Positions 6,294 to 23,390 of a DNA stretch of 26,424 nucleotides are shown here, in pieces (positions within the stretch are counted from its first letter, which is position 1; each line of letters starts with the position of its first letter). The notes under the pieces were generated by a model. That model was given only the letters and a program-made list of their open reading frames with translations. It was not told where the DNA came from and searched no databases. Source of the DNA: a virus; the IMG/VR virus record IMGVR_UViG_3300044970_002471, positions 1 through 26,424 of that record. One strand, 5' to 3'. Made by a program: the position numbers and the translations under genes.

Positions 6294-6295
6294 TT

Positions 6296-8714: not shown

Positions 8715-8723
8715 AGGAATTTT

Positions 8724-9512
8724 ATGATTTATATTACTGGGTCTAGTGGATTAATTGGAAAAAGATTTTTAGAATTGTCTAAATATCCAATTACCAAAGT
8801 TTCATATCGAGATGAACCTCAAGATGTATTTGATTCCCATGAAAATTCATGTCTCCTTCATTTGGCATGGTCTTCACTTGCAAGAAATACTTACGATGAA
8901 TTTGAGAAATTTATAAAAAATGATGTAATTAATAGTAAAAAAATATTTGATTTTTATTCAAAGAAAAATCCAAATGGAAAAATTATTTTTATTTCTACTG
9001 CTGGTGGGTTATATGTAAATCATGAAAGAACAGTTGATGAAAATTCATTGGTAAATCCAAATACCCTTTATGGTGATCTTAAATTACAAGTTGAAAATAT
9101 TTTAAAAACAGTTGAGTGTAATACACTTTCATTAAGAGTATCTAATGTGTGGGGAGGAAAATCACTACCATCAAATAGAATTAATGGTTTAGTTGATAAA
9201 CTTCTTAGTAGTGTAAATACAGATAATGTCATAGATTTATATACAAATTTTGATACTAGAATAGATATAATACATGTTGATGATTTAGTGGATTTAATTG
9301 AAAAGTGTATAGAAAAAAATTTTCATATCAAACATGATATGTTTGTAATTGGATCTCAAAGCTTGACCATTAAACAACTTTTGGATATAGTTACTTCATC
9401 GGGATATTTAAATCTTAAACTTTCCAAAAAACAGGTTAAATCTTATCTTCATGTAGAACCTCGTAGAGCATTAAATGTATTTGATTGGAAACCTAAAAAT
9501 AAATTAATATAA
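8724..9512 (+). CDS. NAD(P)-dependent sugar epimerase/reductase (short-chain dehydrogenase)
   Basis: An extended SDR of 262 residues: ITGSSGLIG (4-12) binds NAD(P), HLAWSS follows the second strand, FISTAGGLY carries the catalytic Ser/Thr, and NTLYGDLKLQ contains the YxxxK pair. RVSNVWGG is the post-catalytic motif of nucleotide-sugar SDRs. AAGGA at 8714-8718 supports the start. The small size and Y-G-D-L-K form suit a 4-ketoreductase or epimerase. Because no standard GDP-fucose synthase is present, it is a candidate to reduce the Gmd product, but that is inference. Its last residues are about 35 bases from the next gene. Confidence 0.8.
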   Translation: MIYITGSSGLIGKRFLELSKYPITKVSYRDEPQDVFDSHENSCLLHLAWSSLARNTYDEFEKFIKNDVINSKKIFDFYSKKNPNGKIIFISTAGGLYVNHERTVDENSLVNPNTLYGDLKLQVENILKTVECNTLSLRVSNVWGGKSLPSNRINGLVDKLLSSVNTDNVIDLYTNFDTRIDIIHVDDLVDLIEKCIEKNFHIKHDMFVIGSQSLTIKQLLDIVTSSGYLNLKLSKKQVKSYLHVEPRRALNVFDWKPKNKLI

Positions 9513-9547
9513 AATTTTGATAATTAAAAAAAAATCTGGAGATTAAA

Positions 9548-10231
9548 ATGGGACTTGATATTCAAAATATTAGATTATTAAATCATTGCCATCAATATGG
9601 TGATTTTAAAGATACATTAACGATTGGCAGGCAAACAATTTTTGTACATGAGGAACAATTAAAATATCTTTTAGAAGATGACTCTTTAAGTGGGATTAAA
9701 TGTGGTGAAAGTTATTGTGAGAATGTATTCATTAGTAATTATGGTTCTACTAAAGTAGATTCTATTGATTATTGTGATTATGAAGGGTGTACAATAGTTC
9801 ATGACATGAACATTCCAATTCAAAATAGTATGCAAAAATATGACACAATTTTTGATGGTGGAAGTTTAGAACATATATTTAATATAAATCAAGCATTAAA
9901 AAATGTATCCTTAATGTGTAAACCTGGAGGGCAAATCATCCATTCGTTGCCAGCAAATAATCAATGTGGGCATGGATTTTGGCAATTTTCTCCCGAATTA
10001 TTTTTATCATTGTACTCAGAAAAAAATGGTTATTCTGATACCGAAGTTTACATTGCTAGTGTTCATAGGCATGATGATATATTGAAGGTAGAACCACATA
10101 ATGCAAATGGTAGGATTGAAATAAACATAGAAGGTCCTTCTTATCTTTGGGTGAGAACGGTTTTAAAAAAAGATTCATTTAATCATGATGGTATCCAGCA
10201 GGTTGATTATGAAAGTAATTATTGGGTTTAA
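9548..10231 (+). CDS. Class I SAM-dependent methyltransferase-like protein
   Basis: A 227-residue protein with the later part of a class I methyltransferase fold: YDTIFDGGSLEHIFNI (about 99-114, motif IV-like with a post-motif His) and MCKPGGQIIHSLPANN (motif V/VI-like). The usual N-terminal GxGxG is not obvious, because the first 80 residues are diverged (SYCENVFISNYG). GGAG at 9538-9541 supports ATG 9548. It differs from the four FkbM proteins and may act on a sugar or small acceptor in the same pathway. No membrane segment is seen. Confidence 0.7.
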   Translation: MGLDIQNIRLLNHCHQYGDFKDTLTIGRQTIFVHEEQLKYLLEDDSLSGIKCGESYCENVFISNYGSTKVDSIDYCDYEGCTIVHDMNIPIQNSMQKYDTIFDGGSLEHIFNINQALKNVSLMCKPGGQIIHSLPANNQCGHGFWQFSPELFLSLYSEKNGYSDTEVYIASVHRHDDILKVEPHNANGRIEINIEGPSYLWVRTVLKKDSFNHDGIQQVDYESNYWV

Positions 10232-10285
10232 AAATATTTAACTTGGTTAAATGGATAAATTAATTAAAAATATAAGGAGTTTTTT

Positions 10286-10924
10286 GTGAATTATAAAAGA
10301 CAATCGGAATTGCCATATCCACAACCTTGGGAATGGGTAAAAGATAATATTGATTTTTATGGTGATGATTTATTTTTTGTCGATATTGGTGCTCATGATG
10401 GAATAGATTGTTCTAACACTGCTTTTTTTGAAATGAATTTGGGGTGGAATGGTATTTGTATTGAACCTCATCCAGATGTGTATTTGAAACTAGAAGAAAA
10501 TAGAAAATGCATAAAATATAATTGTTGTATTTCCGATAAAGAAGGAGAATGTGATTTTCTTGTTATAAGTGGATATTCTGAAATGTTGAGTGGTATTTAT
10601 TCTGAATATGATCAAAAACATATAGACAGGATAGAAAAAGAAATTAATTTGTATGGTGGATCTAAAAAAAATGTAAAAATAAAATCTAGAAATTTAAATA
10701 ATATTTTAAATGAAAATAATATTAAAAAAGTTGATTACTTGAGTGTAGATACAGAAGGATCTGAATTTAACATTATTAAGTCTATTGATTTTAGTAAAAC
10801 TGACATTAGTATTATTAGTGTGGAAAATAATGGATATAATAATTTTGTCAGGGAATATTTGGAAAATAATGGATATCAATTTTTAACTAAATGTTGTTGT
10901 GATGAAATATATTGCAAAAAATAA
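10286..10924 (+). CDS. FkbM-family methyltransferase, GTG start
   Basis: A 212-residue enzyme whose FkbM order is complete: FFVDIGAHDGIDCSNTAFFE (SAM motif I and the following helix), GICIEPHPDVYLKLEENR (motif II), and VDYLSVDTEGSEFNIIKSID (the acidic FkbM motif). The start is GTG at 10286, fixed by AAGGAG at 10274-10279. Together with the 16071-16742 protein it forms a close pair, with the same motif I layout (F-I/V-x-x-G-A-x-D-G-I). It is the last gene before the internal promoter at 10939. It is among the most AT-rich genes in the window. Confidence 0.87.
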   Translation: MNYKRQSELPYPQPWEWVKDNIDFYGDDLFFVDIGAHDGIDCSNTAFFEMNLGWNGICIEPHPDVYLKLEENRKCIKYNCCISDKEGECDFLVISGYSEMLSGIYSEYDQKHIDRIEKEINLYGGSKKNVKIKSRNLNNILNENNIKKVDYLSVDTEGSEFNIIKSIDFSKTDISIISVENNGYNNFVREYLENNGYQFLTKCCCDEIYCKK

Positions 10925-10938
10925 AAATTTTTTGCTGC

Positions 10939-10967
10939 TTGACTATTAGTTAAACCCATAGTATTAT
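10939..10967 (+). promoter_or_regulatory. Internal sigma-70-type promoter for the sugar-activation cassette
   Basis: TTGACT (10939-10944), 17 bases, then TATTAT (10962-10967): five of six matches in each box at ideal spacing. The predicted start near 10974 leaves a leader of only about 16 bases before ATG 10990. It lies in one of the few intergenic gaps of the glycan region, and the base composition of the genes changes here. It would also render the TTG at 10972 nearly leaderless, favouring the ATG start. Confidence 0.72.
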
Positions 10968-10989
10968 TTCTTTGTATCTATTAAAATTT

Positions 10990-11595
10990 ATGTCCGAATA
11001 TCCTAATTTTAAACACAATCATTTTCTTGATGATTATCTTGGCAATAAAGCAAAAATTAAACTTATTATACTTGATGTTGATGGTGTATTGACTGATGGG
11101 ACAAAAGTTTATGATAGGGATCACAATCCCATCCACAAAAAATTTCGATGTAAAGATTTTACAGCAATCAAAAGATTTATTGCTGCTGGAGTTAAAATTA
11201 TTATGCTTTCAGGAGATGCTTGGAATCGTGATATGGCACAAAAACGAAATATTCCTTTCTACTGCACTCGTGGTAGTGATTTGAGCCTTGATAAGTCCAG
11301 ATATATTCCTTACCTTGAGAGTAATTACGATGTGAAATCTGAAAACATGGCATTCGTTGGTGATGATTATTTTGATCTATCTATGTTCAAAAAACTGTTC
11401 TGGTCTTTCTGTCCCTCAGATGCACCACAGATTATCAAGGATAACTCACACTATGTTCTCAATGCAAAAGGTGGTGAAGGAGTTATTGTAGAACTCTATG
11501 ATTTCCTTGTGATGAAAGGTATTGTTTCTGAATCTACAGAAGAAGAAGTTGTAGAACTTGATAAGAAAGAATCGTCCAGTGCAGATATGAAGTGA
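10990..11595 (+). CDS. HAD-family phosphatase, KdsC-like
   Basis: A 201-residue HAD hydrolase of the C0 (KdsC) type. LIILDVDGVLTDGTKVYD (about 26-43) contains the Asp nucleophile and acid/base Asp. IIMLSGDAWNRDMAQKRNI is motif II, the Lys in LSLDKSRYIP is motif III, and FVGDDYFDLSMFKK is motif IV. KdsC enzymes remove phosphate from KDO-8-phosphate, and relatives act on other sugar phosphates. A 20-residue N-terminal extension and an acidic C-tail (EESTEEEVVELDKKE type) are unusual. ATG 10990 was chosen over TTG 10972 because of the promoter just upstream. It overlaps the PfkB kinase gene by one base, so a shared sugar-phosphate pathway is likely. Confidence 0.82.
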   Translation: MSEYPNFKHNHFLDDYLGNKAKIKLIILDVDGVLTDGTKVYDRDHNPIHKKFRCKDFTAIKRFIAAGVKIIMLSGDAWNRDMAQKRNIPFYCTRGSDLSLDKSRYIPYLESNYDVKSENMAFVGDDYFDLSMFKKLFWSFCPSDAPQIIKDNSHYVLNAKGGEGVIVELYDFLVMKGIVSESTEEEVVELDKKESSSADMK

Positions 11596-12272
11596 TGTGT
11601 AAAAGTATTACTTTGTACGGTCATCTGACTGTAGATCGAATATTGATTGATTTTAATGAAACTTTTTCTCTTGGTGGAATTGCTAATGTTTGGTCTGGTC
11701 TTGTTTCACTTGGTCATGGGTTGAATGTTAATATTGAACCCTTATCAATTGGTCATGCTCTTATCTTAGTTGATAGAAAAAATAATTATAGAGTTGGTAG
11801 AGGTTGTTTAAACATCAAAGAAAACAAAACAACTAATGTTGATTCTGATTGGCATCATATTTCATACATCAACCAACTTAAAGATACATTATTTTTATCT
11901 AAGTTAAATGGTGTAGTCTCTGTGGATATAACAAAAGAGCAACCAGAAAATTGTATCTCGGTGCTTCAATATATTGATTATCTTTTTATTGCGAAAGAAG
12001 ATTTATTTATGGAAATTAAAGAATTGGGGTCTCTAGTAAAGAAATATGCAATTATGCATCACCCAAGAGGTAGTGTTTTTTCTGATGGAAATACTGTACA
12101 AAAATATGATTTACCAGAAGAACTATATCTTTCTGATGTAAATGTTCTTGGTGCAGGAGATTATTTTGCTTCTGGATTTATTCATTCTATGACTAATGGG
12201 TGTGAAATAAAAGAGTCTATAGTTAATGCACATGAAGTTGCAAGTAAATTAATTAAAAAAAATCTTTTATGA
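11595..12272 (+). CDS. PfkB-family sugar kinase, short form
   Basis: A 225-residue ribokinase/PfkB-like kinase. The N-terminal LYGHLTVDRI and LGGIANVWSGLVSLG match the GGxxxN substrate-binding motif. NVLGAGDYFASGFIHSM near residue 182 is the second PfkB signature, with the GAGD anion hole and catalytic Asp. The protein is shorter than typical members (about 300 residues), so the lid and part of the core may be reduced. ATG 11595 shares its A with the preceding TGA; GTG 11592 is an alternative. In heptose pathways a PfkB-type kinase works with a HAD phosphatase and a nucleotidyltransferase, the same trio as here. Confidence 0.78.
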   Translation: MCKSITLYGHLTVDRILIDFNETFSLGGIANVWSGLVSLGHGLNVNIEPLSIGHALILVDRKNNYRVGRGCLNIKENKTTNVDSDWHHISYINQLKDTLFLSKLNGVVSVDITKEQPENCISVLQYIDYLFIAKEDLFMEIKELGSLVKKYAIMHHPRGSVFSDGNTVQKYDLPEELYLSDVNVLGAGDYFASGFIHSMTNGCEIKESIVNAHEVASKLIKKNLL

Positions 12273-13000
12273 AAAAATATAATTTACTTATTCCTATGGT
12301 TGGAAGAGGTCAAAGATTTCGTGATGCTGGATTTTCAATTCCTAAACAATTGATTCAGGTTGGTCATCAACAAATGATTGACTGGAGTATGTCGTGCATT
12401 AAAAGAGAAGATTGTAATCAAATTTTTGTAATTCGTAGAGACACAGTTGATGTTAATGGGATGGATGCTGTTTTGAAAAGTAAGTTTGGTGATGATATAA
12501 AAATTGTTATTGCCGAAAATGAAACTAATGGAACAGTTTCTTCTTGTTTGCTTGCAGAAAACTATATCAATAATGAGTTGCCAATAACTATTACGACACT
12601 TGATATGTATTTTGAACCTCACTTTGATCCAAGTCAGGTTGCAAATTCTGATGGTGTAGTTCTTACGTTTAATTCTGAAAATCCTGCATATAGTTATTCG
12701 CAAGTTGGTGATGATGGGTATGTAATTAGAACTGCGGAGAAAGAAGTAATTAGCAATCATGCACATGCTGGTCTTTATCATTTTGCAAAAGGATCAACTT
12801 TTGTAAGACTTGCAAAGGAAATGATCGAAAGAAATATTAGAGTTAAAAATGAGTTTTATGTAGCACCACTCTATAATCTTTTTATCGAAGAAGGTATGAA
12901 AATTTCCATTCAACCTATTGAACGATTGTGGTCCATGGGAACTCCTGATGAAAGAAAATATTTTTTGGATAATGAATATGAAAATCTTCAAAATCGATGA
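12269..13000 (+). CDS. Sugar-phosphate nucleotidyltransferase
   Basis: A 243-residue NTP_transferase-family protein. IPMVGRGQRFRDAGFSIPKQL (8-28) is the variant of the GxGxR...PK nucleotide-binding signature that opens these enzymes. TLDMYFEPHFD (about 109-119) holds the metal-binding Asp, and NHAHAGLYHF and IERLWSMGTPDE are the conserved later blocks. It should activate a sugar 1-phosphate with CTP, GTP, ATP or UTP; the base cannot be inferred. It overlaps the kinase stop by 4 bases and the cupin start by 23. It is a probable final step of the kinase/phosphatase cassette. Confidence 0.85.
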   Translation: MKKYNLLIPMVGRGQRFRDAGFSIPKQLIQVGHQQMIDWSMSCIKREDCNQIFVIRRDTVDVNGMDAVLKSKFGDDIKIVIAENETNGTVSSCLLAENYINNELPITITTLDMYFEPHFDPSQVANSDGVVLTFNSENPAYSYSQVGDDGYVIRTAEKEVISNHAHAGLYHFAKGSTFVRLAKEMIERNIRVKNEFYVAPLYNLFIEEGMKISIQPIERLWSMGTPDERKYFLDNEYENLQNR

Positions 13001-13295
13001 CATGAAAGGTGGATGGTTTGTTGGTGATTTTGAACCATCTACTTTTAAGAATCCTTTTTTTGAGGTCGCACACCATCAACATAAGAAGGGTAGGGGTCAA
13101 CCTCATGTCCATAAAGTCACCACTGAATTGACTTATATTATAGAAGGAGAAATGTTAGTTTCTGGTCAACATCTTGAGAGTGGTGATATGTGGATCTATG
13201 ATAAAAATGAAGTTGCTGATGTCGAGAATCTAACTAATGTCAGTCTTATTGTAGTTCGTTGGCCTTCTGTTCCTTCGGATAAGTATTTGGTATGA
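12978..13295 (+). CDS. Cupin-domain protein
   Basis: A 105-residue single cupin domain: GQPHVHKVTTELTYIIEG contains the HxH and Glu metal or substrate motif 1, and LESGDMWIYDKNEVADVEN forms motif 2. ATG 12978 sits inside the end of the nucleotidyltransferase gene; ATG 13002 is possible but would remove the MKIFKIDDM lead. Cupins in nucleotide-sugar loci are often epimerases or isomerases (RmlC, FdtA types), and some are merely sensors. The association with the cassette is firm; the reaction is inferred only in outline. Confidence 0.75.
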   Translation: MKIFKIDDMKGGWFVGDFEPSTFKNPFFEVAHHQHKKGRGQPHVHKVTTELTYIIEGEMLVSGQHLESGDMWIYDKNEVADVENLTNVSLIVVRWPSVPSDKYLV

Positions 13296-13747
13296 AATTC
13301 ATAGCACATAGGGGAAATATCTCTGGACCAAATCCTTTAAAAGAAAATAAACCAGAATATATTGATGCAGCAATTCAATCTGGATTTGATGTGGAAGTTG
13401 ATGTTAGATTACTTAATAATAAATTTTACTTAGGTCATGATGAATCTCAATATTATATTTCTACTACTTGGTTAAATGAAAGAATTAATTTACTTTGGAT
13501 ACATTGTAAAGATTTAAATACTCTTGAATTTTTTTCTAATAGTCGAAAAAGTTTTAATTATTTTTGGCATCAAAAAGATGATTTTGCGTTAACGAGTAAA
13601 AAATATATCTGGACTTATCCTGGAGAAGCATACACTTCAAAATCTGTTATTGTAATGCCAGAGTCTAATCCTAATATTGATTTTAATATTTTAAAGATGT
13701 ATAATTGTTTTGGTATTTGTAGTGATTATGTGGAAAGTATAAAATGA
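13292..13747 (+). CDS. Small glycerophosphodiester phosphodiesterase-like protein
   Basis: A 151-residue protein starting MKFIAHRGN (His6-Arg7, the GDPD HRG motif), with FDVEVDVRLLNNKFYLGHD (32-50) giving the ExD metal pair and the third His. These are the N-terminal active-site elements of glycerophosphodiester phosphodiesterases. The rest of the TIM barrel is much reduced: family members are usually 230-300 residues. It overlaps both neighbours by 4 bases. It may cleave a phosphodiester-linked glycerol or sugar, or bind such a group. A role in glycan trimming is a guess. Confidence 0.65.
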   Translation: MKFIAHRGNISGPNPLKENKPEYIDAAIQSGFDVEVDVRLLNNKFYLGHDESQYYISTTWLNERINLLWIHCKDLNTLEFFSNSRKSFNYFWHQKDDFALTSKKYIWTYPGEAYTSKSVIVMPESNPNIDFNILKMYNCFGICSDYVESIK

Positions 13748-14463
13748 AAATTGCTCTTTGTTTGTCTGGCCGTCCTTCGTATTTAAAAAAAGGATATGAG
13801 TCTTTATATGATAAAATTTTATCAAAATATAATGTGGATTGTTTTGTGCATACTTGGTGGGATCCAGGACAAGAAAATACTACGGCATATTTTGCTCCAA
13901 ATTTATCATATGGAAGAAAGTATATTTGGGAACCTGATACTTTAGAGTTTATTCAAAAAAAATATAATCCTAAAATATTTTTAAATGAACCTCAATTGAT
14001 ATTTGAACCTTATTCTGAAGTTAATTATGGAATGGGATCTTCACATCATATACATAGTTTCATGTACTCTTTATACTACTCTAATCAATTAAAAAAATTT
14101 TATGAAGAAAAAAATAGTTTTAAATATGATTTAGTCATACGAAGTAGATTTGATGTGATTTTAGAAAAATTTGATATTTGTTTAAATGAAATTGATTCAA
14201 ATTATGTCTATTCTGGATCTGCTGCTCCAGACCCTAATATAAAAAAAATAATAAAAAGTGATTTTTCTTTTGGGTCATCCAAATGTATGGATGTTTATTC
14301 TTCTATTTTTCCTAATTTTGATTATTGTTTTAAGAATATAGATAAACTGGGTGGTATATTTGTTCCTGAAAACTTAATATCTTTTATTTTGGATGAAAAT
14401 AATATCCCAAAAAAATTTATTGATGAGTATGTGATAGATAAACTTATTTTGGATAAAGAATGA
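13744..14463 (+). CDS. Probable glycosyltransferase-like protein of unnamed family
   Basis: A 239-residue soluble protein with IALCLSGRPSYLKKGYES (3-20), VDCFVHTWWDP (about 31-41) and YDLVIRSRFDVILEKF (about 128-143). The order 'LSGxxR..., DxFxHTW, xxRxRxD' marks a group of uncharacterised proteins common in bacterial capsule and phage glycan loci. The RxRFD block resembles the metal/nucleotide site of a GT-A fold. It overlaps both neighbours by 4 bases. Assignment as a transferase is inference from motif layout and context. Confidence 0.6.
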   Translation: MKIALCLSGRPSYLKKGYESLYDKILSKYNVDCFVHTWWDPGQENTTAYFAPNLSYGRKYIWEPDTLEFIQKKYNPKIFLNEPQLIFEPYSEVNYGMGSSHHIHSFMYSLYYSNQLKKFYEEKNSFKYDLVIRSRFDVILEKFDICLNEIDSNYVYSGSAAPDPNIKKIIKSDFSFGSSKCMDVYSSIFPNFDYCFKNIDKLGGIFVPENLISFILDENNIPKKFIDEYVIDKLILDKE

Positions 14464-15410
14464 AAATAGCATTTCATGATAATTCTCTTTGTTTGAGAGG
14501 AACAACTGTAGTAATTTACGACTGGGCATATTGGACTAGGCATTATCTTAATGTTGAACCAGTTATTATGTTCAATATAAAAAATAGTGTTAATGATAAA
14601 CGTGTCATTAAAAAATTTGAAAAAGAATTTCCTGTTTTTGGATATGAAGATAAAAGTGAAATTGACAAAATCTTAGATAAAAATAAATGTGATTCTTTTT
14701 TTATGATAAAAGGAGGTGAACCTGATGGTGTTATTTCCTCAAGTGCTAAAAATTTAATAAATTCAGTATCTGGATGGTGGAAACCAGAATGGATTCATGG
14801 TGATGTTTATGCTATGGGATCCAAATGGTTATCAAAAATAACTGATTATAAAATACCTTATGTTCCTCATATAGTTCATCTTCCAGACCATAGTTTTGAT
14901 ATGAGAGATGAATTGGGAATTCCTAAAGATGCATTGGTTTTTGGAAGAAATGGTGGATGGGATACCTTTGATCTTCCATTTGTAAAGCAATCAATTGTAG
15001 AAACTTTAGAAAAAAGGAATGATATTTGGTTTGTTTTTCAATATACAGAACCTTTTTATAAACATGAACGAATAATATACCTCAATCCAACTGCCGATTT
15101 GAATGAAAAGGTAAGATTCATTAATACTTCAGATGTAATGATACACGCAAGAAATATTGGAGAATCTTTTGGATTATCTTGTGCAGAATTCTCAATTAGA
15201 AATAAACCTGTAATAACATATTATAATTCTCTTGAAAGAAATCATATAGATACATTAGGAGAAAAAGGAATCTATTATGAAAATAAAAAAGATATAGATC
15301 ACATTTTATTGAATATAGATAAAAATGAAATAAATCGATTGGAATGGAATTGCTATAAGGACCATTCTCCTGAAAATTTGGTACAAAAATTTAAAGAAAT
15401 TTACTTATGA
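14460..15410 (+). CDS. GT4-like (GT-B fold) glycosyltransferase
   Basis: A 316-residue two-domain protein. VFGRNGGWDTFDL begins the C-terminal Rossmann half, WFVFQYTEPFYKH follows, and RNIGESFGLSCAEFSIRNKP (about 237-256) is the E-x7-E region that binds the donor in retaining GT-B (GT4) enzymes. A mid-protein IVHLPDHSFDMRDELGIP linker is typical. It overlaps the neighbouring genes by 4 bases at each end and has no membrane segment. The donor is unknown. Confidence 0.78.
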   Translation: MKIAFHDNSLCLRGTTVVIYDWAYWTRHYLNVEPVIMFNIKNSVNDKRVIKKFEKEFPVFGYEDKSEIDKILDKNKCDSFFMIKGGEPDGVISSSAKNLINSVSGWWKPEWIHGDVYAMGSKWLSKITDYKIPYVPHIVHLPDHSFDMRDELGIPKDALVFGRNGGWDTFDLPFVKQSIVETLEKRNDIWFVFQYTEPFYKHERIIYLNPTADLNEKVRFINTSDVMIHARNIGESFGLSCAEFSIRNKPVITYYNSLERNHIDTLGEKGIYYENKKDIDHILLNIDKNEINRLEWNCYKDHSPENLVQKFKEIYL

Positions 15411-16051
15411 ATATACAAGATTATTTAAGAGAATTGAGTAAAAATTATAAACCTACTTCAATATTGGATATTGGAGCACATCACGGAGAATTTTCTAAAT
15501 TTTGCAAGTCACTTTGGGAAGATGTGGACTTATTGATGTTGGAAGGTAATGATGAATGCGAATTCGTTTTAGATCAATTGCCATTTGATCATTGTATTGT
15601 TCTTTTGAGCGATACTAATAAAGAAGTTACTTTATATTTGAATCCAAATAACTTAAGTTGTACTGGAACTTCTTATTATAAAGAAAGAACAAGACATTAT
15701 AAAAATAGTATAGAAGTTAAGAAAAATACATATACTCTAGATGAAGTTATAGAAGATATTAATAAAAAATATGATGTAATTAAGATTGATACTCAAGGAT
15801 CTGAATTGGATATCATAAAAGGTGGATTGAAAACAGTTCAGAATTGTTCTTATTTGATAATGGAAGTTCCTATTCTTCAATATAATGAAGGAAGTCCTTT
15901 GTTTGATGAAATAGTTGAATATATGAATAGTATTGGATTTTCTGATCATGAAATTATTGAAGAACATATTTGGAAAGATCCAAATGAAGATGAATTTGAA
16001 TGTGGTCAAATTTTTCAATTAGATGTTGTTTTTAAAAAATTAAAAAATTAA
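15407..16051 (+). CDS. FkbM-family methyltransferase
   Basis: A 214-residue enzyme with ILDIGAHHGEFSKFC (motif I), DLLMLEGNDECEFVLDQL (motif II), and YDVIKIDTQGSELDIIKGG (FkbM acidic motif). The LSCTGTSYYKERTRHY block in the middle is typical of sugar-methylating FkbM proteins. It overlaps the GT4 gene by 4 bases and is followed by a 19-base gap to the next FkbM gene. The two adjacent methyltransferases suggest either two methylation positions or two sugars. Confidence 0.85.
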   Translation: MNIQDYLRELSKNYKPTSILDIGAHHGEFSKFCKSLWEDVDLLMLEGNDECEFVLDQLPFDHCIVLLSDTNKEVTLYLNPNNLSCTGTSYYKERTRHYKNSIEVKKNTYTLDEVIEDINKKYDVIKIDTQGSELDIIKGGLKTVQNCSYLIMEVPILQYNEGSPLFDEIVEYMNSIGFSDHEIIEEHIWKDPNEDEFECGQIFQLDVVFKKLKN

Positions 16052-16070
16052 AAATAAAAGGAGTTATTTT

Positions 16071-16742
16071 ATGCAATCTTATGGTTTAAATGAATTAGAT
16101 TTAAAATTATTAAAGTATATTGATTATAAAAATGGATTTTTTATAGAAGCTGGTGCTAATGATGGGATTTCACAATCAAATACCGCTTTGTATGAGTTTC
16201 ATTATGGTTGGAAAGGGTTATTGGTAGAACCAATTTATAACAAATATCTTGATTGTAAAAAAAATAGAAAAAATTCTATAGTTGAACATTGCGATCTTGT
16301 CGGTAAAAATTATAATAAAAAAACTATAAGAGGAAATTTTGATGAAACTGGATATGCTGAAAGTTTAACCGCATGTGTTTGTGATGATGGAGATTATAAT
16401 GATGATAGGTTGGTGGAACTTAAACAAAATTTAATTGAGAATAATCAATGGGCAAAGGATAATGGATACCATCCAATTGTTGAAGTGCCTGCGATTACTA
16501 TTGGAGAATTGCTAAAAAAACACAAAATAGAAAAAATAGACCTTTTTTCTTTGGATGTTGAAGGATATGAAATTTCAGCATTGAATGGACTTGACTTTTT
16601 GATAAATAGACCAAAGTATTTTTTGATTGAAATGACTTATGATGAAAGAAAAAAAGCAATTACAGAATATATGATGAGTAAAAATTATAAAATGGTCGAA
16701 TATTTTACACAAAACGATTGTTTGTGGATTGATGGTAAATGA
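16071..16742 (+). CDS. FkbM-family methyltransferase
   Basis: A 223-residue enzyme with FFIEAGANDGISQSNTALYE (motif I), GLLVEPIYNKYLDCKKNR (motif II) and IDLFSLDVEGYEISALNG (acidic motif). AAGGAG upstream at about 16059-16064 supports ATG 16071. The motif I and II wording closely follows that of the 10286-10924 protein, so these two are probable paralogues. The extra Asp-rich segment VCDDGDYNDDR is absent from the other. Role: O-methylation of a sugar, by family. Confidence 0.87.
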   Translation: MQSYGLNELDLKLLKYIDYKNGFFIEAGANDGISQSNTALYEFHYGWKGLLVEPIYNKYLDCKKNRKNSIVEHCDLVGKNYNKKTIRGNFDETGYAESLTACVCDDGDYNDDRLVELKQNLIENNQWAKDNGYHPIVEVPAITIGELLKKHKIEKIDLFSLDVEGYEISALNGLDFLINRPKYFLIEMTYDERKKAITEYMMSKNYKMVEYFTQNDCLWIDGK

Positions 16743-16748
16743 AATATT

Positions 16749-17435
16749 ATGATAAAATTGTGTGATAGTGTAAAAAATGGAAGACTTGCAAATAAATTAC
16801 TCCAGAATATTGGAATAAGTGTTCTTGCAAAGAAGTATAATTATTTTCCTGAATATCATGATATTGAGGAAAATAAATTAATTGGACTTAATTTATTTTA
16901 TGGTAAAGAAAAAAAATCAAACTTTGTTTGGTATGATGAGCATGAAAGTTTAAAAAAACTTTTAGATGGAGTAGATATAGATCATGGTATCATTTATCAT
17001 GGGTACTTTCAACAAAGGTATTTTTTATTAAATTGTAAAAAATATTTAGATGATGTAATTAAAAAAAAAGAAATAAAAAAATATAACAAAGTTTTTGTTC
17101 ATGTTAGACTTGGTGATCAGACACATACAAATCCCGGTATTTTATATTACGAAAAAATATTAGATTCCATTTCGTTTAGTGGTGGAATGATTTCTAGTGA
17201 TAGTTTAGAAAATCCAATGATAACAAATTTATCGGAAAAATATAATCTTAAAATTTTTAATTCTTCTCCGATAGATACTATAATTGTTGGATCTGAGTAT
17301 GAATATAGGGTTTTGAGTAATGGATCTTTTAGTTGGATGATTGGATATCTTGGAAATAATGACAAAGTTTTTTGTCCAACTACTTTGACTTATCATGGTG
17401 ATATGTTTGTTTATCCTGAATGGAATTATTTTTAG
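16749..17435 (+). CDS. GT11-like glycosyltransferase (fucosyltransferase superfamily)
   Basis: A 228-residue protein with the landmarks of GT11-like enzymes. NGRLANKLLQNIGIS (9-23) corresponds to the GxLGNQ-like opening, VFVHVRLGD (about 115-123) to the donor-binding HxRxGD, and LSNGSFSWMIGYLGNN (about 194-209) to the SNSSFSWW block. Length is shorter than the typical 270-300. It lies 6 bases after an FkbM gene, with no clear ribosome site. GT11 enzymes are alpha-1,2-fucosyltransferases, so a GDP-6-deoxyhexose donor is likely, and Gmd would then feed two transferases. Confidence 0.72.
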   Translation: MIKLCDSVKNGRLANKLLQNIGISVLAKKYNYFPEYHDIEENKLIGLNLFYGKEKKSNFVWYDEHESLKKLLDGVDIDHGIIYHGYFQQRYFLLNCKKYLDDVIKKKEIKKYNKVFVHVRLGDQTHTNPGILYYEKILDSISFSGGMISSDSLENPMITNLSEKYNLKIFNSSPIDTIIVGSEYEYRVLSNGSFSWMIGYLGNNDKVFCPTTLTYHGDMFVYPEWNYF

Positions 17436-17442
17436 AGGTAAA

Positions 17443-18336
17443 ATGAAAAGTTTAGTTACAGGTGCAGCAGGATTTATTGGTTCAACTCTTGTTGATGAAT
17501 TAATCAAACAGGGACACGAAGTTATTGCAATTGATAATGAGAGTGCAGAATCCAATGAAGAATTTTATTGGAATGATGAAGCACAAAATTATAAGTATGA
17601 TATTTGTGATTACGAAAAAACCAGGTCTCTTTATGATGGGATTGATTATGTATTTCATCTTGCTGCTGAGGCAAGGATTCAACCAGCAATTTTAAGTCCT
17701 ATTGAAGCAGTTAGTATTAATTGTGTAGGTACTGTTACAGTCCTTCAGTGTGCCAGAGAAGCAGGAGTAAAGAAAGTGATTTATTCTTCTACATCTTCTG
17801 GTTATGGATTTAATGAAAAACCAAATCACGAAAATCAACGAGATGATTGTTTAAATCCATATTCGGTATCTAAAGTTGCTGGAGAAAAACTCTGCAAAAT
17901 GTATAATGACTTATTCGGTCTTAAAACAATTTCCTTTAGGTATTTTAATGTTTATGGTGAAAGGCAACCTTTAAAAGGACAATATGCTCCAGTTATTGGT
18001 ATTTTCTTACGTCAACGAAAGGATGGTGAACCTCTTACTATTGTTGGGGATGGGGAACAACGTAGAGACTTTACACACGTATCTGATGTAGTTCAAGCAA
18101 ATATTCTTGCAGCAACAAAAGATATTGATGATGAATATTATGGTGAACTTTATAATGTAGGTAATGGTGTGAATTACTCAATTAATGAAATTGCAAATGT
18201 TATATCTGATAATCAAATAAATATTCCAGCAAGAATTGGAGAATCACGAATTACTCTTGCAAATAATGGAAAATTGAGAACCATTTTTGGATGGAGACCT
18301 CAAGTAAATTTAATGGATTGGATTAAAACTCAATGA
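17443..18336 (+). CDS. Nucleotide-sugar 4-epimerase (GalE/WbpP-like SDR)
   Basis: A 297-residue extended SDR: VTGAAGFIG (5-13) binds NAD, HLAAEARI follows beta 4, SSTSSGYG provides catalytic Ser/Thr, and NPYSVSKVAGE supplies the YxxxK pair. YFNVYGERQ and the GDGEQRRDFTHVSDVV block are typical of UDP-hexose and UDP-N-acetylhexosamine 4-epimerases. ATG 17443 has AGAGG at 17434-17438, favouring it over the longer reading from 17395. It is less AT-rich than adjacent transferases. Together with the 19037-19837 dehydrogenase it could give UDP-galacturonate or similar. Confidence 0.87.
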   Translation: MKSLVTGAAGFIGSTLVDELIKQGHEVIAIDNESAESNEEFYWNDEAQNYKYDICDYEKTRSLYDGIDYVFHLAAEARIQPAILSPIEAVSINCVGTVTVLQCAREAGVKKVIYSSTSSGYGFNEKPNHENQRDDCLNPYSVSKVAGEKLCKMYNDLFGLKTISFRYFNVYGERQPLKGQYAPVIGIFLRQRKDGEPLTIVGDGEQRRDFTHVSDVVQANILAATKDIDDEYYGELYNVGNGVNYSINEIANVISDNQINIPARIGESRITLANNGKLRTIFGWRPQVNLMDWIKTQ

Positions 18337-19037
18337 ATTTATTAATAGAATATTTTAGATCCCCTGATTATCAGAGGCATAGTGAATATCTTACTTGTAT
18401 TCACGAGAATTTGGAAAATGAGTACATTGATAAAGTTTATATTTTTATATCAGATGATGCAAAGTTAAATTTTCAATCTGATAAAATAGAAATTGTTCAA
18501 AGAGAAGAAAGGCCAACATATAAGGACCTTTTTGAATTTTGTAATGAAAATCTAAAAGATCAAATTTGTATTATTGCAAATGCTGATATTATTCTTGATG
18601 AAACTTTATCTGCAGTTAAAGAAACTAATTTAGATAATATTTTTGTTGCTTTAACACGATGGGAAGTATTTTGCCAAAATGGTGAGTGGTGTATTGCTCC
18701 ATTTGATAATTCTTCTTCCCAAGATGTTTGGGTGTTTACTACACCAATTAAAACAACTGAAGAAATGAATTTTACATTAGGAAAACCTGGATGTGATAAT
18801 AAAATTGCTAAATTGATGGCAGAACAAGGATATACATTAAAAAATCCAGGAAAACAAATAGTATGTGCTCACTATCATATTTCTGGACATAGAAATTATA
18901 ATAATGATGATAGAATTCCTGGTCCATATACTTGCTTAGTGCCAAATAATGATATTAATACAGAGACACAACTTATTGAAATTGATGGTTTTGATGAACA
19001 AGGAAGAGCATATATTATACAGAAGGAAAATTTATAA
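18333..19037 (+). CDS. Probable GT-A-fold glycosyltransferase of unnamed family
   Basis: A 234-residue soluble protein. Near the N-terminus, LIEYFRSPDYQRHSEYLTCI then VYIFISDD resembles the opening strand of a nucleotide-diphospho-sugar transferase. ICIIANADIILDETL (about 78-92) supplies a D at the DxD place, and TLGKPGCDNKIAKLM looks like the acceptor-side acidic motif (GxDN). HYHISGHRNY is a His-rich late block. It overlaps the epimerase gene by 4 bases. The family has no name I can give, and catalysis is not proven. Confidence 0.6.
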   Translation: MNLLIEYFRSPDYQRHSEYLTCIHENLENEYIDKVYIFISDDAKLNFQSDKIEIVQREERPTYKDLFEFCNENLKDQICIIANADIILDETLSAVKETNLDNIFVALTRWEVFCQNGEWCIAPFDNSSSQDVWVFTTPIKTTEEMNFTLGKPGCDNKIAKLMAEQGYTLKNPGKQIVCAHYHISGHRNYNNDDRIPGPYTCLVPNNDINTETQLIEIDGFDEQGRAYIIQKENL

Positions 19038-19837
19038 TGAAAATTGGAATAATTGGAAATGGATTTGTTGGTAATGCTATATACCAAAATCTAAAAAATA
19101 AGATTCAAAATTTATTTGTTTTTGATGTTGATGAAAAAAGATCTTTAAATTCTTATGATGAAACTATAAATTCAGATATTGTTTTTGTTTGTCTTCCAAC
19201 ACCAATGAAAAATAAAATGGGTGGAGGATGCAATTTATCTTATATTGAATCATTTTTTGAAGATCTTCCTAAAAATCTATCTGGGATTTTTGTTATAAAA
19301 TCTACTGTTCCTATTGGAACTACCAAAGCATTAAGTGAAAAAAGATTAGATTTAAAAATAATTCATAATCCAGAATTCTTAACTGCCAGAAATTCTGTAG
19401 AAGATTTTAATAATGCTGATAGAAATATTATTGGTGGAGAAAAAGAATCATCTCAAAAATTAGAAAATTTTTATTTAAACTATTTTCCTCATATCAAAAA
19501 TATTTTAGTTTCTTTTGAAGAATCTGAATCAATAAAATACTTTTCTAACACATATCTTTCAATGAAAGTCACTTATTTTAATTTAATGTTTGATTTATGT
19601 GACAAACTTGGAATTGATTTTGAGAAAGTTAGAAGTGGTGTTTGTTTGGATAAAAGGATTGGTGAATCTCATAGTTTGGTTCCAGGCATTGATGGAGACA
19701 GGGGATTTGGTGGAACTTGTTTTCCGAAAGATTTAAATGCTCTTAATGAAACTTTTAATGATAACGATTTGAATAGTTCTATATTTTCTGAGATTTGGAA
19801 TTATAACATTAAGATTAGAAAAAATATTGATTGGTGA
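19037..19837 (+). CDS. Short UDP-glucose/GDP-mannose dehydrogenase-type protein
   Basis: A 266-residue member of the nucleotide-sugar 6-dehydrogenase family. IGIIGNGFVGNAIY (3-16) binds NAD, VFVCLPTPM (about 50-58) and IKSTVPIGTT follow, and FGGTCFPKDLNAL (about 230-242) holds the catalytic Cys. Family members usually have 390-450 residues with a C-terminal nucleotide-sugar binding domain. That domain is missing, and a terminator begins 46 bases after the stop. It shares one base with the preceding gene. By family it oxidises UDP-glucose (or a relative) to the uronate. How it would bind the donor without the last domain is unclear. Confidence 0.78.
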   Translation: MKIGIIGNGFVGNAIYQNLKNKIQNLFVFDVDEKRSLNSYDETINSDIVFVCLPTPMKNKMGGGCNLSYIESFFEDLPKNLSGIFVIKSTVPIGTTKALSEKRLDLKIIHNPEFLTARNSVEDFNNADRNIIGGEKESSQKLENFYLNYFPHIKNILVSFEESESIKYFSNTYLSMKVTYFNLMFDLCDKLGIDFEKVRSGVCLDKRIGESHSLVPGIDGDRGFGGTCFPKDLNALNETFNDNDLNSSIFSEIWNYNIKIRKNIDW

Positions 19838-20242: not shown

Positions 20243-20406
20243 TGAGTGCTAATATGCTTGGGCAACTTTCTGTTGCTCTTCAAGAACTGGTTGAATCTGG
20301 TGCCTGGAATAATAATGACAAACTTAAAGTCTGTATCGCAGGTACTCTACCAAAAGACAAATTTATTGTAATTCAAAACACTACTAAAAGAGGAGAAACA
20401 AAATGA
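20242..20406 (+). CDS. Small hypothetical protein in the hli operon (54 aa)
   Basis: A 54-residue soluble protein (MSANMLGQLS start). An N-terminal helix (VALQELVESG) is followed by strand-like DKLKVCIAGTLP and DKFIVIQNTTK. Its start shares one base with the stop before it, and its stop overlaps the second HLI gene by 4 bases. The purine-rich GAGGAG stretch near its end serves as the ribosome site of that gene. No family is recognised. Confidence 0.6.
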   Translation: MSANMLGQLSVALQELVESGAWNNNDKLKVCIAGTLPKDKFIVIQNTTKRGETK

Positions 20407-20522
20407 AATTCGGATGGACTGAACAAGCAGAATTGCTAAATGGAAGATTGGCAATGCTAGGATTTGTTGTTGCTGTAGGCACTTATCTCACTACCGGACA
20501 AATTATTCCTGGAATTTTTTGA
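20403..20522 (+). CDS. hli: High-light-inducible protein, short form
   Basis: A 39-residue minimal HLIP. EQAELLNGRLAMLGFVVAVG (7-26) is the chlorophyll-binding helix with the conserved Glu, Asn and Arg, and the end TGQIIPGIF is classic. It is shorter than the first HLIP and lacks its N-terminal extension. GAGG lies about 10 bases upstream of the ATG. A terminator follows after about 20 bases, so it is the last gene of the operon. Confidence 0.95.
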   Translation: MKFGWTEQAELLNGRLAMLGFVVAVGTYLTTGQIIPGIF

Positions 20523-20541
20523 TAATACTTAATATTTTTTT

Positions 20542-20574
20542 ACTCTGTTGCTAAATAAGCAGCAGAGTTTTTTT
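20542..20574 (+). terminator. Rho-independent terminator of the hli operon
   Basis: ACTCTGTTGCT (20542-20552), loop AAATA, AGCAGCAGAGT (20558-20568), an 11-bp stem with one G-T pair, then seven T. It separates early photosynthesis genes from the late and lysis genes that follow. Confidence 0.9.
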
Positions 20575-20579
20575 GTATT

Positions 20580-20744
20580 ATGCCACGAGGACAACTGACT
20601 AAAGATATTATCAAGTGTGAAGTTCTTAAAATAAAATCAAACCTGGATAAAGAGTGGATGGATAAATCTGGATATGACCCAAAATGGTTAGCACATCAAT
20701 ACCTAAATAAAGTTCTTGATAAAATAGAAGAGTATAGGTATTAA
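20580..20744 (+). CDS. Small basic hypothetical protein (54 aa)
   Basis: A 54-residue soluble protein (MPRGQLTKDI start) with charged, helix-forming segments: DIIKCEVLKIKSNLDKEWM and HQYLNKVLDKIEEYRY. Only five bases separate it from the T tract of the hli terminator, so its promoter is not obvious. A TAAATA element inside the terminator loop is one candidate. I recall similar short proteins from T4-like cyanophages, but no function. Confidence 0.65.
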   Translation: MPRGQLTKDIIKCEVLKIKSNLDKEWMDKSGYDPKWLAHQYLNKVLDKIEEYRY

Positions 20745-20756
20745 AATAAATAAATA
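20745..20756 (+). promoter_or_regulatory. Overlapping T4-type late promoter elements
   Basis: Two overlapping AATAAATA elements (20745-20752, 20749-20756) match the relaxed cyanophage late consensus NATAAATA. Transcription would begin near 20758-20762, about 20 bases before the peptidase start at 20783. This fits late expression of a lysis or virion-associated enzyme. Confidence 0.6.
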
Positions 20757-20782
20757 CCTTCAGTGTCTGTAAATATAAAAAA

Positions 20783-21454
20783 ATGACATTAGATCTTCAT
20801 AACTTTTTTAAGTATTATGATGATGGAAATTCGAATCATGTGGCAGCAGTGCAATGGTTAGAGGATAACCTTCCTGCTGAATTCATGGATGACTCAGAAA
20901 CAGAATGGATTGGAATCTTTAGAACTAAACCACCTACACCAGCAGTTCTTGATGTTCCATATTTTAATCAAGTAGATAATTATAGAGATGCACATAGAAC
21001 TTGTAACAGTTCATCATGTGCTATGTGTCTTGCTTTCCTCAAACCAGGAAGCATTAAAGGTGATGATGAATATGTTAAGAAAGTATTTGCGATTGGTGAC
21101 ACGACAGACCATGCGGTTCAGACAAAGGTTCTCGCAGGTTATGGTATTAAGTCTCACTTTAGTTATAATCTTTCTTTTGCTGACATTGATAAGAGCCTTG
21201 ATAGGGGAAAACCAGTTGTCATTGGAATTCTTCATCGTGGTTCTCTAACTTCCCCTACTGGTGGACACATGTGCGTAGTCATCGGTAAGACACCTGATGG
21301 TAAAGGATACTATGTAAATGATCCTTATGGTTCTCTAAACGATAACTATACTGGTCCAGTTACAAATGGTAAGAAGACCATTTATACCAAAGCAGTTCTT
21401 AAGCACCGTTGGGCACCTACCGGAGGGGACGGATGGGGTCGTATCTTTGATTGA
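20783..21454 (+). CDS. C39-like cysteine peptidase with shared N-terminal module
   Basis: A 223-residue protein. Residues 4-31 (DLHNFFKYYD, then AAVQWLEDNLP) form a module repeated in the endolysin at 22719. Residues 55-210 are a papain-like C39_2 domain: LDVPYFNQVDN (56-66), RTCNSSSCAM with the likely nucleophile Cys74 (C-x3-S, then A-M), GGHMCVVIG with His162, and YYVNDPYGS with the Asn/Asp pair 179-180. C39-like domains cut peptides or peptide cross-links. Its position beside a lysozyme, behind a late promoter, suggests a peptidoglycan endopeptidase or a virion maturation protease. No signal peptide is seen. No clear Shine-Dalgarno precedes the ATG. Confidence 0.8.
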   Translation: MTLDLHNFFKYYDDGNSNHVAAVQWLEDNLPAEFMDDSETEWIGIFRTKPPTPAVLDVPYFNQVDNYRDAHRTCNSSSCAMCLAFLKPGSIKGDDEYVKKVFAIGDTTDHAVQTKVLAGYGIKSHFSYNLSFADIDKSLDRGKPVVIGILHRGSLTSPTGGHMCVVIGKTPDGKGYYVNDPYGSLNDNYTGPVTNGKKTIYTKAVLKHRWAPTGGDGWGRIFD

Positions 21455-21499
21455 TAAATAATAATGCCTTAATTGGTTCGCATCTTTAAGGTAGAGGGG

Positions 21500-21519
21500 G
21501 GAGCAGAAATGCTCCTTTT
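21500..21519 (+). terminator. Rho-independent terminator after the C39-like peptidase gene
   Basis: GGAGCA (21500-21505), GAAA loop, TGCTCC (21510-21515), then TTTT and a CTTG tail. The stem is short (6 bp) but GC-rich with a stable tetraloop. It sits inside the loop of the larger inverted repeat 21471-21547. Confidence 0.72.
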
Positions 21520-21523
21520 CTTG

Positions 21524-21531
21524 TATAAATA
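21524..21531 (+). promoter_or_regulatory. T4-type late promoter of the homing endonuclease gene
   Basis: An exact TATAAATA. With T4 spacing the start is near 21537, inside the second arm of the inverted repeat and 22 bases before ATG 21559. It is directly behind a terminator, so late expression of the endonuclease should depend on it. Confidence 0.8.
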
Positions 21532-21558
21532 CTATTGCGAACCAATTTAAGAGTAGAA

Positions 21559-22194
21559 ATGGTAAATCCTAACAGGTTTTATACCTATGCCTATTTACGT
21601 GAGGATAGAACTCCTTATTACATAGGTAAGGGAGTAAGATATAGATTATTTGAAGGTAGTGGAAAACCTTGTCCTGTTCCAAAAGATAAAAATAGAATAA
21701 TCTTTCTCAAACAAAATCTTATAGAAGAGGAAGCATTTAAACACGAAACTTATATGATAAGTGTGTTCGGCAGAAAGATTGATGGTGGAATTCTTTTGAA
21801 TAAAACTTTTGGTGGTGAAGGTGCTTCTGGTAGAGTAGTCAAAGATTCCACCAGAGTAATTCTTAAAGAGAAATGTAGTGGGTGGAAACACACACCAGAA
21901 GCAATAGAAAAAATAAGACAAAGTTCTTTGAGTAGGATATATTCCCCAAAAAGTGAGGAAACAAAAAGAAAAATAAGTAATACTCTAAAAGGAAGAAAAT
22001 TATCAAAAGAGTTGGTAGATAAAAGAACTCAATCTGTCTGTAAAAATACTTATGTCATAATATCACCAGATGGGGTTAAATATAATACCAATAATTTAAA
22101 AGAATTCCAAAGACAAAATAATTTAAAACATCTTTATGATGTGGTTTCTGGTAAAAGGAAACAAGAGAAAGGTTGGACTGCTTTTAAAATATAA
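21559..22194 (+). CDS. GIY-YIG homing endonuclease
   Basis: A 211-residue free-standing homing endonuclease. The GIY-YIG domain spans 7-95: FYTYAYLRED (GIY position), PYYIGKG (19-25, YIG position), ETYMISVFG with the catalytic Glu63, and LLNKTFGGEGASG (79-91). Two NUMOD3-like DNA-binding repeats follow (HTPEAIEKIRQSS at 111-123; KSEETKRKISNTLKGRKLS at 131-149). A C-terminal helix-turn-helix-like block (YNTNNLKEFQRQNNL, 175-189; GKRKQEKGW) ends the protein. ATG 21559 was chosen over TTG 21535, because the latter lies upstream of the late transcript start. It separates the peptidase from the gene at 22217. Its stop overlaps another late promoter. It probably spreads by cutting a neighbouring site in endonuclease-free relatives. 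Confidence 0.92.
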   Translation: MVNPNRFYTYAYLREDRTPYYIGKGVRYRLFEGSGKPCPVPKDKNRIIFLKQNLIEEEAFKHETYMISVFGRKIDGGILLNKTFGGEGASGRVVKDSTRVILKEKCSGWKHTPEAIEKIRQSSLSRIYSPKSEETKRKISNTLKGRKLSKELVDKRTQSVCKNTYVIISPDGVKYNTNNLKEFQRQNNLKHLYDVVSGKRKQEKGWTAFKI

Positions 22195-22197
22195 ATA
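22190..22197 (+). promoter_or_regulatory. T4-type late promoter before the 22217 gene
   Basis: An exact TATAAATA spanning the stop codon of the endonuclease gene. The predicted start near 22203 lies 14 bases before ATG 22217. If the endonuclease gene is an insertion, this promoter belongs either to its 3' end or to the ancestral lysis genes. Confidence 0.75.
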
Positions 22198-22216
22198 ACT
22201 AAAAAGTATTTGTAAA

Positions 22217-22588
22217 ATGGACGCACAAGAACTTCGTGCCCTTCAAGAAGCTTATAATCAAGTTTATCAGGTTGATGAAGAACTTACTGGTGCTCGCAAA
22301 CAAAAAGCATCTGATTTACTTAATAGAAAACTAAGAGATGTTGAAACTCTTAGAAAACTTAGTGCTCGTAAAAGACAAAAACCAGAAGATGTTGGTTCTG
22401 GTAATAAAGCAAGAAGAAGAGCAGGTAAAGAAGTAAAGGATAGTCGTATTGCTGTATCTGATAGTTATGACTATTACGACATCATCCTCTCACACTTACT
22501 TGATGAAGGATATGCTGAAACTCCAGAAGCAGCAGAAGCAATTATGGTGAATATGAGTGAAGATTGGAGAGAGAGTATTATTGGTTAA
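22217..22588 (+). CDS. Charged hypothetical protein with acidic C-terminal motif
   Basis: A 123-residue protein. The N-terminal helix MDAQELRALQEAYNQVY is followed by a very basic middle (LNRKLRDVETLRKLSARKRQ, then GNKARRRAGKEVKDSR at about 62-77). The C-terminus, about 85-123, is acidic (YYDIILSHLLDEGY, ETPEAAEAIM, MSEDWRESI). I recall similar acidic tails on several cyanophage proteins, but have not searched. No enzymatic motif is seen. It stands behind a late promoter and ahead of the lysozyme, so a virion or assembly role is plausible. No ribosome site is evident. Confidence 0.75.
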   Translation: MDAQELRALQEAYNQVYQVDEELTGARKQKASDLLNRKLRDVETLRKLSARKRQKPEDVGSGNKARRRAGKEVKDSRIAVSDSYDYYDIILSHLLDEGYAETPEAAEAIMVNMSEDWRESIIG

Positions 22589-22594
22589 ATACTT

Positions 22595-22741
22595 ATGGAG
22601 AATGAAAACTCCTCGATTAATTTCAAGAGAAAGATCTTACAAAGAATTAAAGATCTTACAAATCACGGAAAGCACTTAGAAGCTTCCAAACTTTTCAACA
22701 AATACTTTGGAGACGACAATGGCAAGAATCGATTTACATAA
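22595..22741 (+). CDS. Small hypothetical protein (48 aa) overlapping the lysozyme gene
   Basis: A 48-residue soluble basic protein (MENENSSINF start) with helical KRKILQRIKDLTNHGKHLEA and SKLFNKYFG. It overlaps the first 23 bases of the endolysin gene, whose GGAG ribosome site lies within it. That coupling, a 6-base gap from the gene before and a plausible helical composition support it. The function is unknown. Confidence 0.55.
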   Translation: MENENSSINFKRKILQRIKDLTNHGKHLEASKLFNKYFGDDNGKNRFT

Positions 22742-23390
22742 CTTCTTCAAGTTCTATGACGAGAAGAACCCTAATCATGTGAAAGCAGTTCAATGGTTAG
22801 AAGATAACCTACCAGTCAAGTATCTGGAAGATAACGTAGATTGGGCGGAGATCTACAGAGGAAAAAAGGGTAATGCGGCACCAGCATCAGCACCAACTGC
22901 TGCCGCTCCTGTAGTTGGTGGTGACGATATGCCTATGATAGGCCTTAAATTAATCAAAGAGTTTGAAGGATGTCATCTAAAGGCATATCCCGATCCTCTA
23001 TCTGGTGGACTTCCAATCACAATTGGTTGGGGTTCAACTCGTAAGAAAGATGGATCTGCATTCCATATGGGTGATACTCTCACACAAACAGAAGCAGATG
23101 AACTTTTGATTGAACAATGTAAGAGAGAGTTTCTTCCTTCACTTCGTAAAATTCCACACTGGAATGAAATGTCTGACGGCAAAAGAGGTGCCCTACTTTC
23201 TTTTGCTTATAATCTCGGTGCTGGTTTTTATGGTTCTGGTGATTTTAATACTATCACTAAGAGACTGAAGAATAAAGAATGGGACTTAGTTCCAGATGCT
23301 TTATATCTCTACAGAAATCCTGGTTCAAATGTAGAAGCAGGTCTTGCTCGTAGAAGAAAAGCAGAAGGTGAATCTTGGAAAAAAGGTTAA
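22719..23390 (+). CDS. T4-lysozyme-like endolysin (GH24) with shared N-terminal module
   Basis: A 223-residue enzyme that cuts the N-acetylmuramic acid to N-acetylglucosamine bond of peptidoglycan. Residues 5-32 (DLHNFFKFYD, AVQWLEDNLP) repeat the module at the start of the C39-like peptidase. An Ala/Pro-rich linker (51-68) follows. Residues 71-220 are GH24: LIKEFEGCHLKAYPDPLSGG with catalytic Glu83 and Asp92, then ITIGWGST with Thr101, matching the T4 lysozyme E-D-T triad. RGALLSFAYNLGAG (157-170) and the late GLARRRKAEGESW are classic. GGAG at 22709-22712 fixes ATG 22719. It needs a holin; the next gene is a candidate. Confidence 0.93.
   Translation: MARIDLHNFFKFYDEKNPNHVKAVQWLEDNLPVKYLEDNVDWAEIYRGKKGNAAPASAPTAAAPVVGGDDMPMIGLKLIKEFEGCHLKAYPDPLSGGLPITIGWGSTRKKDGSAFHMGDTLTQTEADELLIEQCKREFLPSLRKIPHWNEMSDGKRGALLSFAYNLGAGFYGSGDFNTITKRLKNKEWDLVPDALYLYRNPGSNVEAGLARRRKAEGESWKKG

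Follow-up and report, generated by a model that had tools for sequence, protein, structure and literature searches.

A putative tandem small antisense RNA and target leader upstream of homing endonuclease genes in T4-like cyanophages

The gene for a GIY-YIG homing endonuclease (HEG; 21559-22194, plus strand, 211 aa) in a T4-like cyanophage record of 26,424 bases, the whole of which is referred to as the window, is preceded by a leader with two late-type promoters in tandem. Promoter 1 probably directs a small antisense RNA of about 57 nt, and promoter 2 the HEG mRNA, which bears the target of that RNA. The anatomy of the leader, the covariation of its arms, the conservation of both promoters, the link to many HEG families and the carriage by an insert are shown by sequence comparison. 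For the T4-like cyanophages as a group, the evidence tips slightly towards one mobile module common to HEGs of unrelated families, consisting of a small antisense RNA gene and a target leader with late promoters and with seeds that diversify rapidly yet are always complementary; the diffusible RNA would determine how much nuclease is made and could also silence the same element when a co-infecting phage brings it, as a copy control of homing elements by RNA.

The nuclease gene, its insertion and its leader

Domain and family searches with the ORF at 21559-22194 matched NUMOD3, the homing endonuclease family PHROG 314 and other families of nucleases, and all features of the GIY-YIG HEG class are present, namely the YxY...YIG motif (here YAY...YIG), NUMOD DNA-binding repeats and insertion polymorphism. 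The product is, as judged from its sequence, a GIY-YIG homing endonuclease with predicted cleavage activity. Relatives were found by similarity search in Synechococcus myoviruses, e.g. S-SRM01, and a PDB sequence search with the HEG as query gave no match. Two GIY-YIG HEGs, PQC13_gp114 of S-SRM01 (L001, 3110-3868) and b23_0045 of B23 (L002, 2993-3616), are labelled 'translation initiation factor 2' in GenBank, apparently a misannotation.

The inserted segment (21453-22614, plus strand), which comprises the HEG cassette and a small gene at 22217-22588, was delimited by comparison with L198 and L199, in which the same peptidase-lysozyme neighbourhood is present without the insert and reads ...GATTAATTTC. 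At the same junction the window reads GATT, then the insert beginning with GATAAATA, then GATTAATTTC. Because the uninserted L198 and L199 are without promoter 1, this promoter is considered to have arrived with the insert. In many cyanophages, relatives of the small gene brought by the insert almost always lie behind a late promoter and leader of stereotyped form, ATAAATA-actaaaaagtatt; in the window this promoter is overlapped by the HEG stop codon. The genes for a C39-type peptidase (20783-21454) and a phage lysozyme (22707-23390) adjoin each other in phages without the insert, and their products resemble each other in an N-terminal segment (LHNFFK-YD...AVQWLEDNLP) that may be a targeting domain present in both. 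Elsewhere in the window, a long series of sugar-nucleotide, glycosyltransferase-like and methyltransferase-like ORFs was recognized by eye from the translations at 1613-19837, and an open-ended ORF at 3-545 had a Pfam match to the carbohydrate porin family OprB (E 3e-9), which is unexpected on a phage contig; it was possibly acquired from a cyanobacterial host.

An initial annotation of the leader had described a 12-bp inverted repeat, with TATAAATA and a terminator-like hairpin lying inside it, and had placed the end of the second arm 11 nt before ATG 21559; all of this was confirmed. The repeat is perfect, and arm 1 (AATTGGTTCGCA, 21471-21482), the putative antisense seed, lies 53 nt from arm 2 (TGCGAACCAATT, 21536-21547), the putative target. 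All parts of the leader are on the plus strand. Promoter 1 (GATAAATA, 21453-21460) has the form NATAAATA, which is the published cyanophage late promoter (PMC2984593), and its predicted start is G21466. The predicted RNA of about 57 nt (21466-21522), proposed from its fold and conserved anatomy, would consist of a 5' hairpin (P1), with strands GCCTTAA (21466-21472) and TTAAGGT (21486-21492) and arm 1 mostly in the loop, and a terminator-like hairpin GGAGCA/TGCTCC followed by TTTTCTT (21500-21522); its folding energy is -19.7 kcal/mol (z -2.30). Promoter 2, a late promoter (TATAAATA, 21524-21531), is followed by CTATTG and therefore has its consensus start at G21537, and arm 2 would form the 5' end of the HEG mRNA. 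A weak Shine-Dalgarno-like AAGAG follows at 21549-21553, within the extended pairing in the fold and cofold.

RNA folding of 21440-21570 gave -38.2 kcal/mol (z = -3.64 versus dinucleotide shuffles), with an inner GC hairpin at 21500-21515 followed by TTTTCTT. The extended stem that had been proposed is present in this fold: the arms are paired, and pairing extends to about 18 pairs with two single-base bulges and reaches AAGAGU. The late start that had been placed near 21537 agrees with the predicted consensus start at the edge of arm 2 and the conserved purine at +1, and RNA beginning there is without the stem, as had been expected; the fold of 21537-21620 (z = -1.17) has a free 5' end, and the structure of the longer RNA is lost. 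A search of Rfam with window positions 20400-22800 gave no family match up to E = 1.

Conservation of the leader among relatives

A HEG protein scan of viral contigs yielded 64 loci, nearly all of which have the same leader plan with differing arm sequences. A covariance model made from 41 leaders matched 19 of 20 records, with 52 matches below an E-value of 0.001 and often several per genome, and those ORFs 3' of the matches that were read are of HEG type. In S-SRM01 (NC_070963), the predicted elements begin at 17953, 48433, 51247, 55959, 62406 and 192421. Downstream of the leader lie genes for endonuclease VII-like proteins, HNH/Mob-like nucleases and three or more types of GIY-YIG nuclease. 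Six or more predicted nuclease types have the leader in front of them, and it evidently swaps between these types. Weaker but complete elements were found in the cultured marine phages S-B68, S-N03 and MC09. Weak model matches in T4, S-PM2, Syn9 and S-RSM4 (E 0.008-0.9) were rejected, as they showed no convincing arm pair and no HEG, and their resemblance is limited to the terminator and late promoter. Orphan small RNAs, considered as proof of action in trans, were sought with a model of the small RNA only; none was found, and every match coincides with a full element. No description of this leader was found in the open-licence literature.

A total of 86 leaders were parsed (83 distinct, from T4-like cyanophages), and their common plan consists of NATAAATA, 5 nt, the P1 hairpin with arm 1 largely in its loop, a GC hairpin with a T-rich tail, TATAAATA, 4-5 nt, arm 2, 6-16 nt and ATG. 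Recurrence of this arrangement with different arms in dozens of relatives is far beyond chance. Six leaders (L031, L038, L281, L288, L303 and L304) have an extra 10-12-nt TATTATAAACTCT-like insertion between the terminator and promoter 2, which resembles a duplicated late promoter. At L029, the insertion site of which looks the same as that of L049, the HEG, promoter 2 and the target arm are intact, and promoter 1, P1 and the terminator are missing (about 130 nt upstream of 2306). The segment separating the late promoters has apparently been deleted, and L029 is a natural test case; the small-RNA unit can evidently be lost.

Promoter conservation was assessed in 40 leaders obtained by protein similarity only, with promoter 1 unused in the search; this separate set was used because later leaders came from the model, which includes promoter-1 columns. 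At promoter 1, TAAATA was present in 40/40, T at -1 in 36/40 and a purine at +1 in 39/40, and the corresponding figures at promoter 2 were 40/40, 37/40 and 40/40. The T and the purine are equally spaced at both promoters, in this set and also in the 83-leader set, and the distance from promoter 1 to P1 is fixed. That the upstream site is probably a working promoter is argued mainly from the start-site signature common to the two promoters. In the initial annotation, GATAAATA at 21453-21460 had been treated as a complication; its position was right, but the sequence belongs to the conserved plan of the element and was brought in by the cassette.

The arms are complementary over 8-16 bp in all 86 leaders, among which there are 50 distinct 9-mers at the mRNA 5' end. 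Arm pairs that differ between relatives include TTGGTTCGCA/TGCGAACCAA, GTTGACTGAC/GTCAGTCAAC, TTGGTGGT/ACCACCAA and GACGGCA/TGCCGTC. Compensatory variation in relatives had been named as a check on the initial reading, and the arms, which vary widely yet stay complementary, show that their base pairing matters. Mean duplex energy was -21.4 kcal/mol for cognate arms versus -10.0 kcal/mol for non-cognate arms, and the net hybrid energy from cofolding, after opening of both RNAs, was -13.5 versus -3.5. The strands of P1 are also kept complementary across many classes (GCCTTAA/TTAAGGT, TGCTCT/AGAGTG, TGTCTGT/ACAGATA), with a stem score of 5.5 versus 3.98 for shuffled partners (maximum 4.26), above all 200 shuffles; this covariation is partly confounded, as one and the same 5' strand pairs with both the P1 3' strand and the mRNA. 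With the MAFFT alignment A3 as input, RNAalifold found the terminator stem alone; P1 was missed because its strands are out of register in that alignment, and a separate script was therefore used to test it. The terminator hairpin and T-rich tail have equivalents in the leaders, with compensatory changes in the stem; the T-run is short (3-5 T) and is poor in a few leaders (L041, L047).

Permutation of seeds within versus between genomes gave a suggestive but non-significant distinctness (mean energy 137/2000, strong cross-pairs 523/2000), and within-genome orthogonality of seeds was dropped as proof of action in trans. As one record also has two identical seeds, no pressure for specificity was demonstrated.

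Proposed mechanism and alternative readings

According to the proposed mechanism, which is the most probable reading, the leader would be a self-contained control cassette of a mobile HEG. The gp55-type late promoter at 21453-21460 would start an RNA of about 57 nt at about 21466, which would fold into a 5' hairpin showing arm 1 in its loop and end at the intrinsic terminator, and the late promoter at 21524-21531 would start the HEG mRNA at about 21537, with the target arm at its extreme 5' end. The target would be the first 11-15 nt or so of this mRNA: the loop of the small RNA would pair in trans with nucleotides 1-11, and the 5' strand of P1 would then invade towards AAGAG beside the start codon. 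The predicted complex would cover AAGAG next to AUG and block ribosome loading, and nuclease output would be kept low in proportion to copy number. RNA from upstream, or extending past the terminator, would have both arms and form a silent cis duplex, a T4-style early block. We infer transcription, termination and pairing in trans, and the repressive sign of the effect is suggested by geometry and precedent. The parts of the leader would all be explained if a small antisense RNA acts on the promoter-2 mRNA, a proposal that includes the initial reading as a special case and accounts for three conserved parts that would otherwise be idle.

That initial reading was a T4-like early/late switch, of which the arm pairing, the late promoter between the arms and the late start were upheld. 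As the whole story, i.e. a pure cis switch in which read-through RNA hides the ribosome site and promoter 1 and P1 are incidental, it is rather unlikely, although it agrees with the covariation of the arms, the promoter between them and the 3' arm at the ribosome site, and has exact precedents in I-TevI, segB and mobE (PMC2988022, PMC3014915). It leaves unexplained a conserved, correctly spaced and insert-borne promoter 1, as well as the conserved P1 hairpin around arm 1 and the T-tailed terminator hairpin between the arms, which have no role in a pure switch; moreover, the promoter-1 RNA would itself be late yet has arm 1. Because promoter 1 is itself late-type, the two-promoter unit is not a simple separator of early and late RNA.

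The small RNA might instead act positively, its pairing with the 5' end protecting the HEG mRNA from 5'-dependent decay. Pairing that begins at mRNA nucleotide 1 is compatible with this, as are the many families that leave 9-16 nt free before AUG, but families with 15-16 bp pair up to 6-7 nt before AUG, the extended pairing covers AAGAG, and the known T4 precedents are repressive, and protection is considered improbable. Still less credit is given to the inverted repeat as a DNA operator for autorepression of the late promoter by the nuclease, as in I-TevI. The arms do flank promoter 2, and the operator of I-TevI overlaps its late promoter (PMC2988022), but unrelated nucleases (HNH at L283 and GIY-YIG at L031; likewise L275 and L055) have near-identical leaders with identical arms in front of them, one GIY-YIG N-terminal family has many different arms, and arm-to-arm compensation is expected for pairing and not for a protein site; the operator reading was dropped on the ground that leaders are exchanged between unrelated nucleases. 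The least credible reading, in which promoter 1 is left over from the insertion target, a host late promoter on which the cassette landed, and the remainder is an ordinary terminator and late promoter, draws on the native TAAATA at or near the junction in the empty sites of L305, L049 and L035, but is contradicted for the window by L198/L199. Four independent insertions (window, L053, L304 and L060:5315) have empty sites with neither promoter 1 nor a TAAATA, and the spacing to P1 is fixed.

Relation to known systems and significance

A late promoter or start at the second arm of a ribosome-site hairpin has been described for I-TevI and segB of T4 and mobE of Aeh1 (PMC2988022, PMC3014915). Like these and the hairpins of e, soc and 49, the present leader has a 5' arm upstream, a 3' arm at the ribosome site and, between the arms, a late promoter whose predicted start excludes the 5' arm, with a HEG downstream. 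Unlike them, it begins with a second late-type promoter, has a hairpin of its own around arm 1 and contains a terminator in the stretch that separates the arms, and one leader type with co-varying arms is common to several unrelated HEG families. In the T4 type the late RNA is without the 5' arm, whereas the promoter-1 RNA would include arm 1 whether or not it is terminated. As in type I toxin-antitoxin pairs (zorO-orzO, PMC3919570; tisB/istR-1), a small RNA, here a putative one, has a promoter and a terminator to itself and complements the 5' leader of the adjacent gene, and the complementarity is kept by covariation; here the two are in tandem on the same strand, pairing covers 8-16 bp from mRNA nucleotide 1, and the RNA is a predicted one. 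The targets are homing endonucleases and not small hydrophobic membrane peptides. As one defining feature of each class fails, the leader was filed under neither T4 hairpins nor type I pairs.

For cyanophage HEGs, the one antisense RNA that has been reported is CfrI of cyanophage S-PM2, which has ~225 nt and is antisense to psbA and the HEG (PMC2984593). The RNA predicted here is likewise linked to a cyanophage HEG but is short and lies on the strand of the HEG itself, unlike CfrI, which is on the opposite strand, and the model search of S-PM2 gave no significant match (E 0.26). I-TevI protein binds an operator that overlaps its own late promoter (PMC2988022), and the present leader likewise has a regulatory site overlapping a HEG late promoter; the site of I-TevI is a protein operator, whereas the arms here co-vary independently of nuclease family.

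The comparative data predict exact RNAs, with their start sites, ends, seeds and targets, several per genome and including the cultured phages S-SRM01, B23, S-B68, S-N03 and MC09, and they are testable at once. If the proposal is true, the many natural seed pairs would constitute a set of small antisense regulators, and the leader would reveal how selfish nucleases keep themselves in check during late infection.
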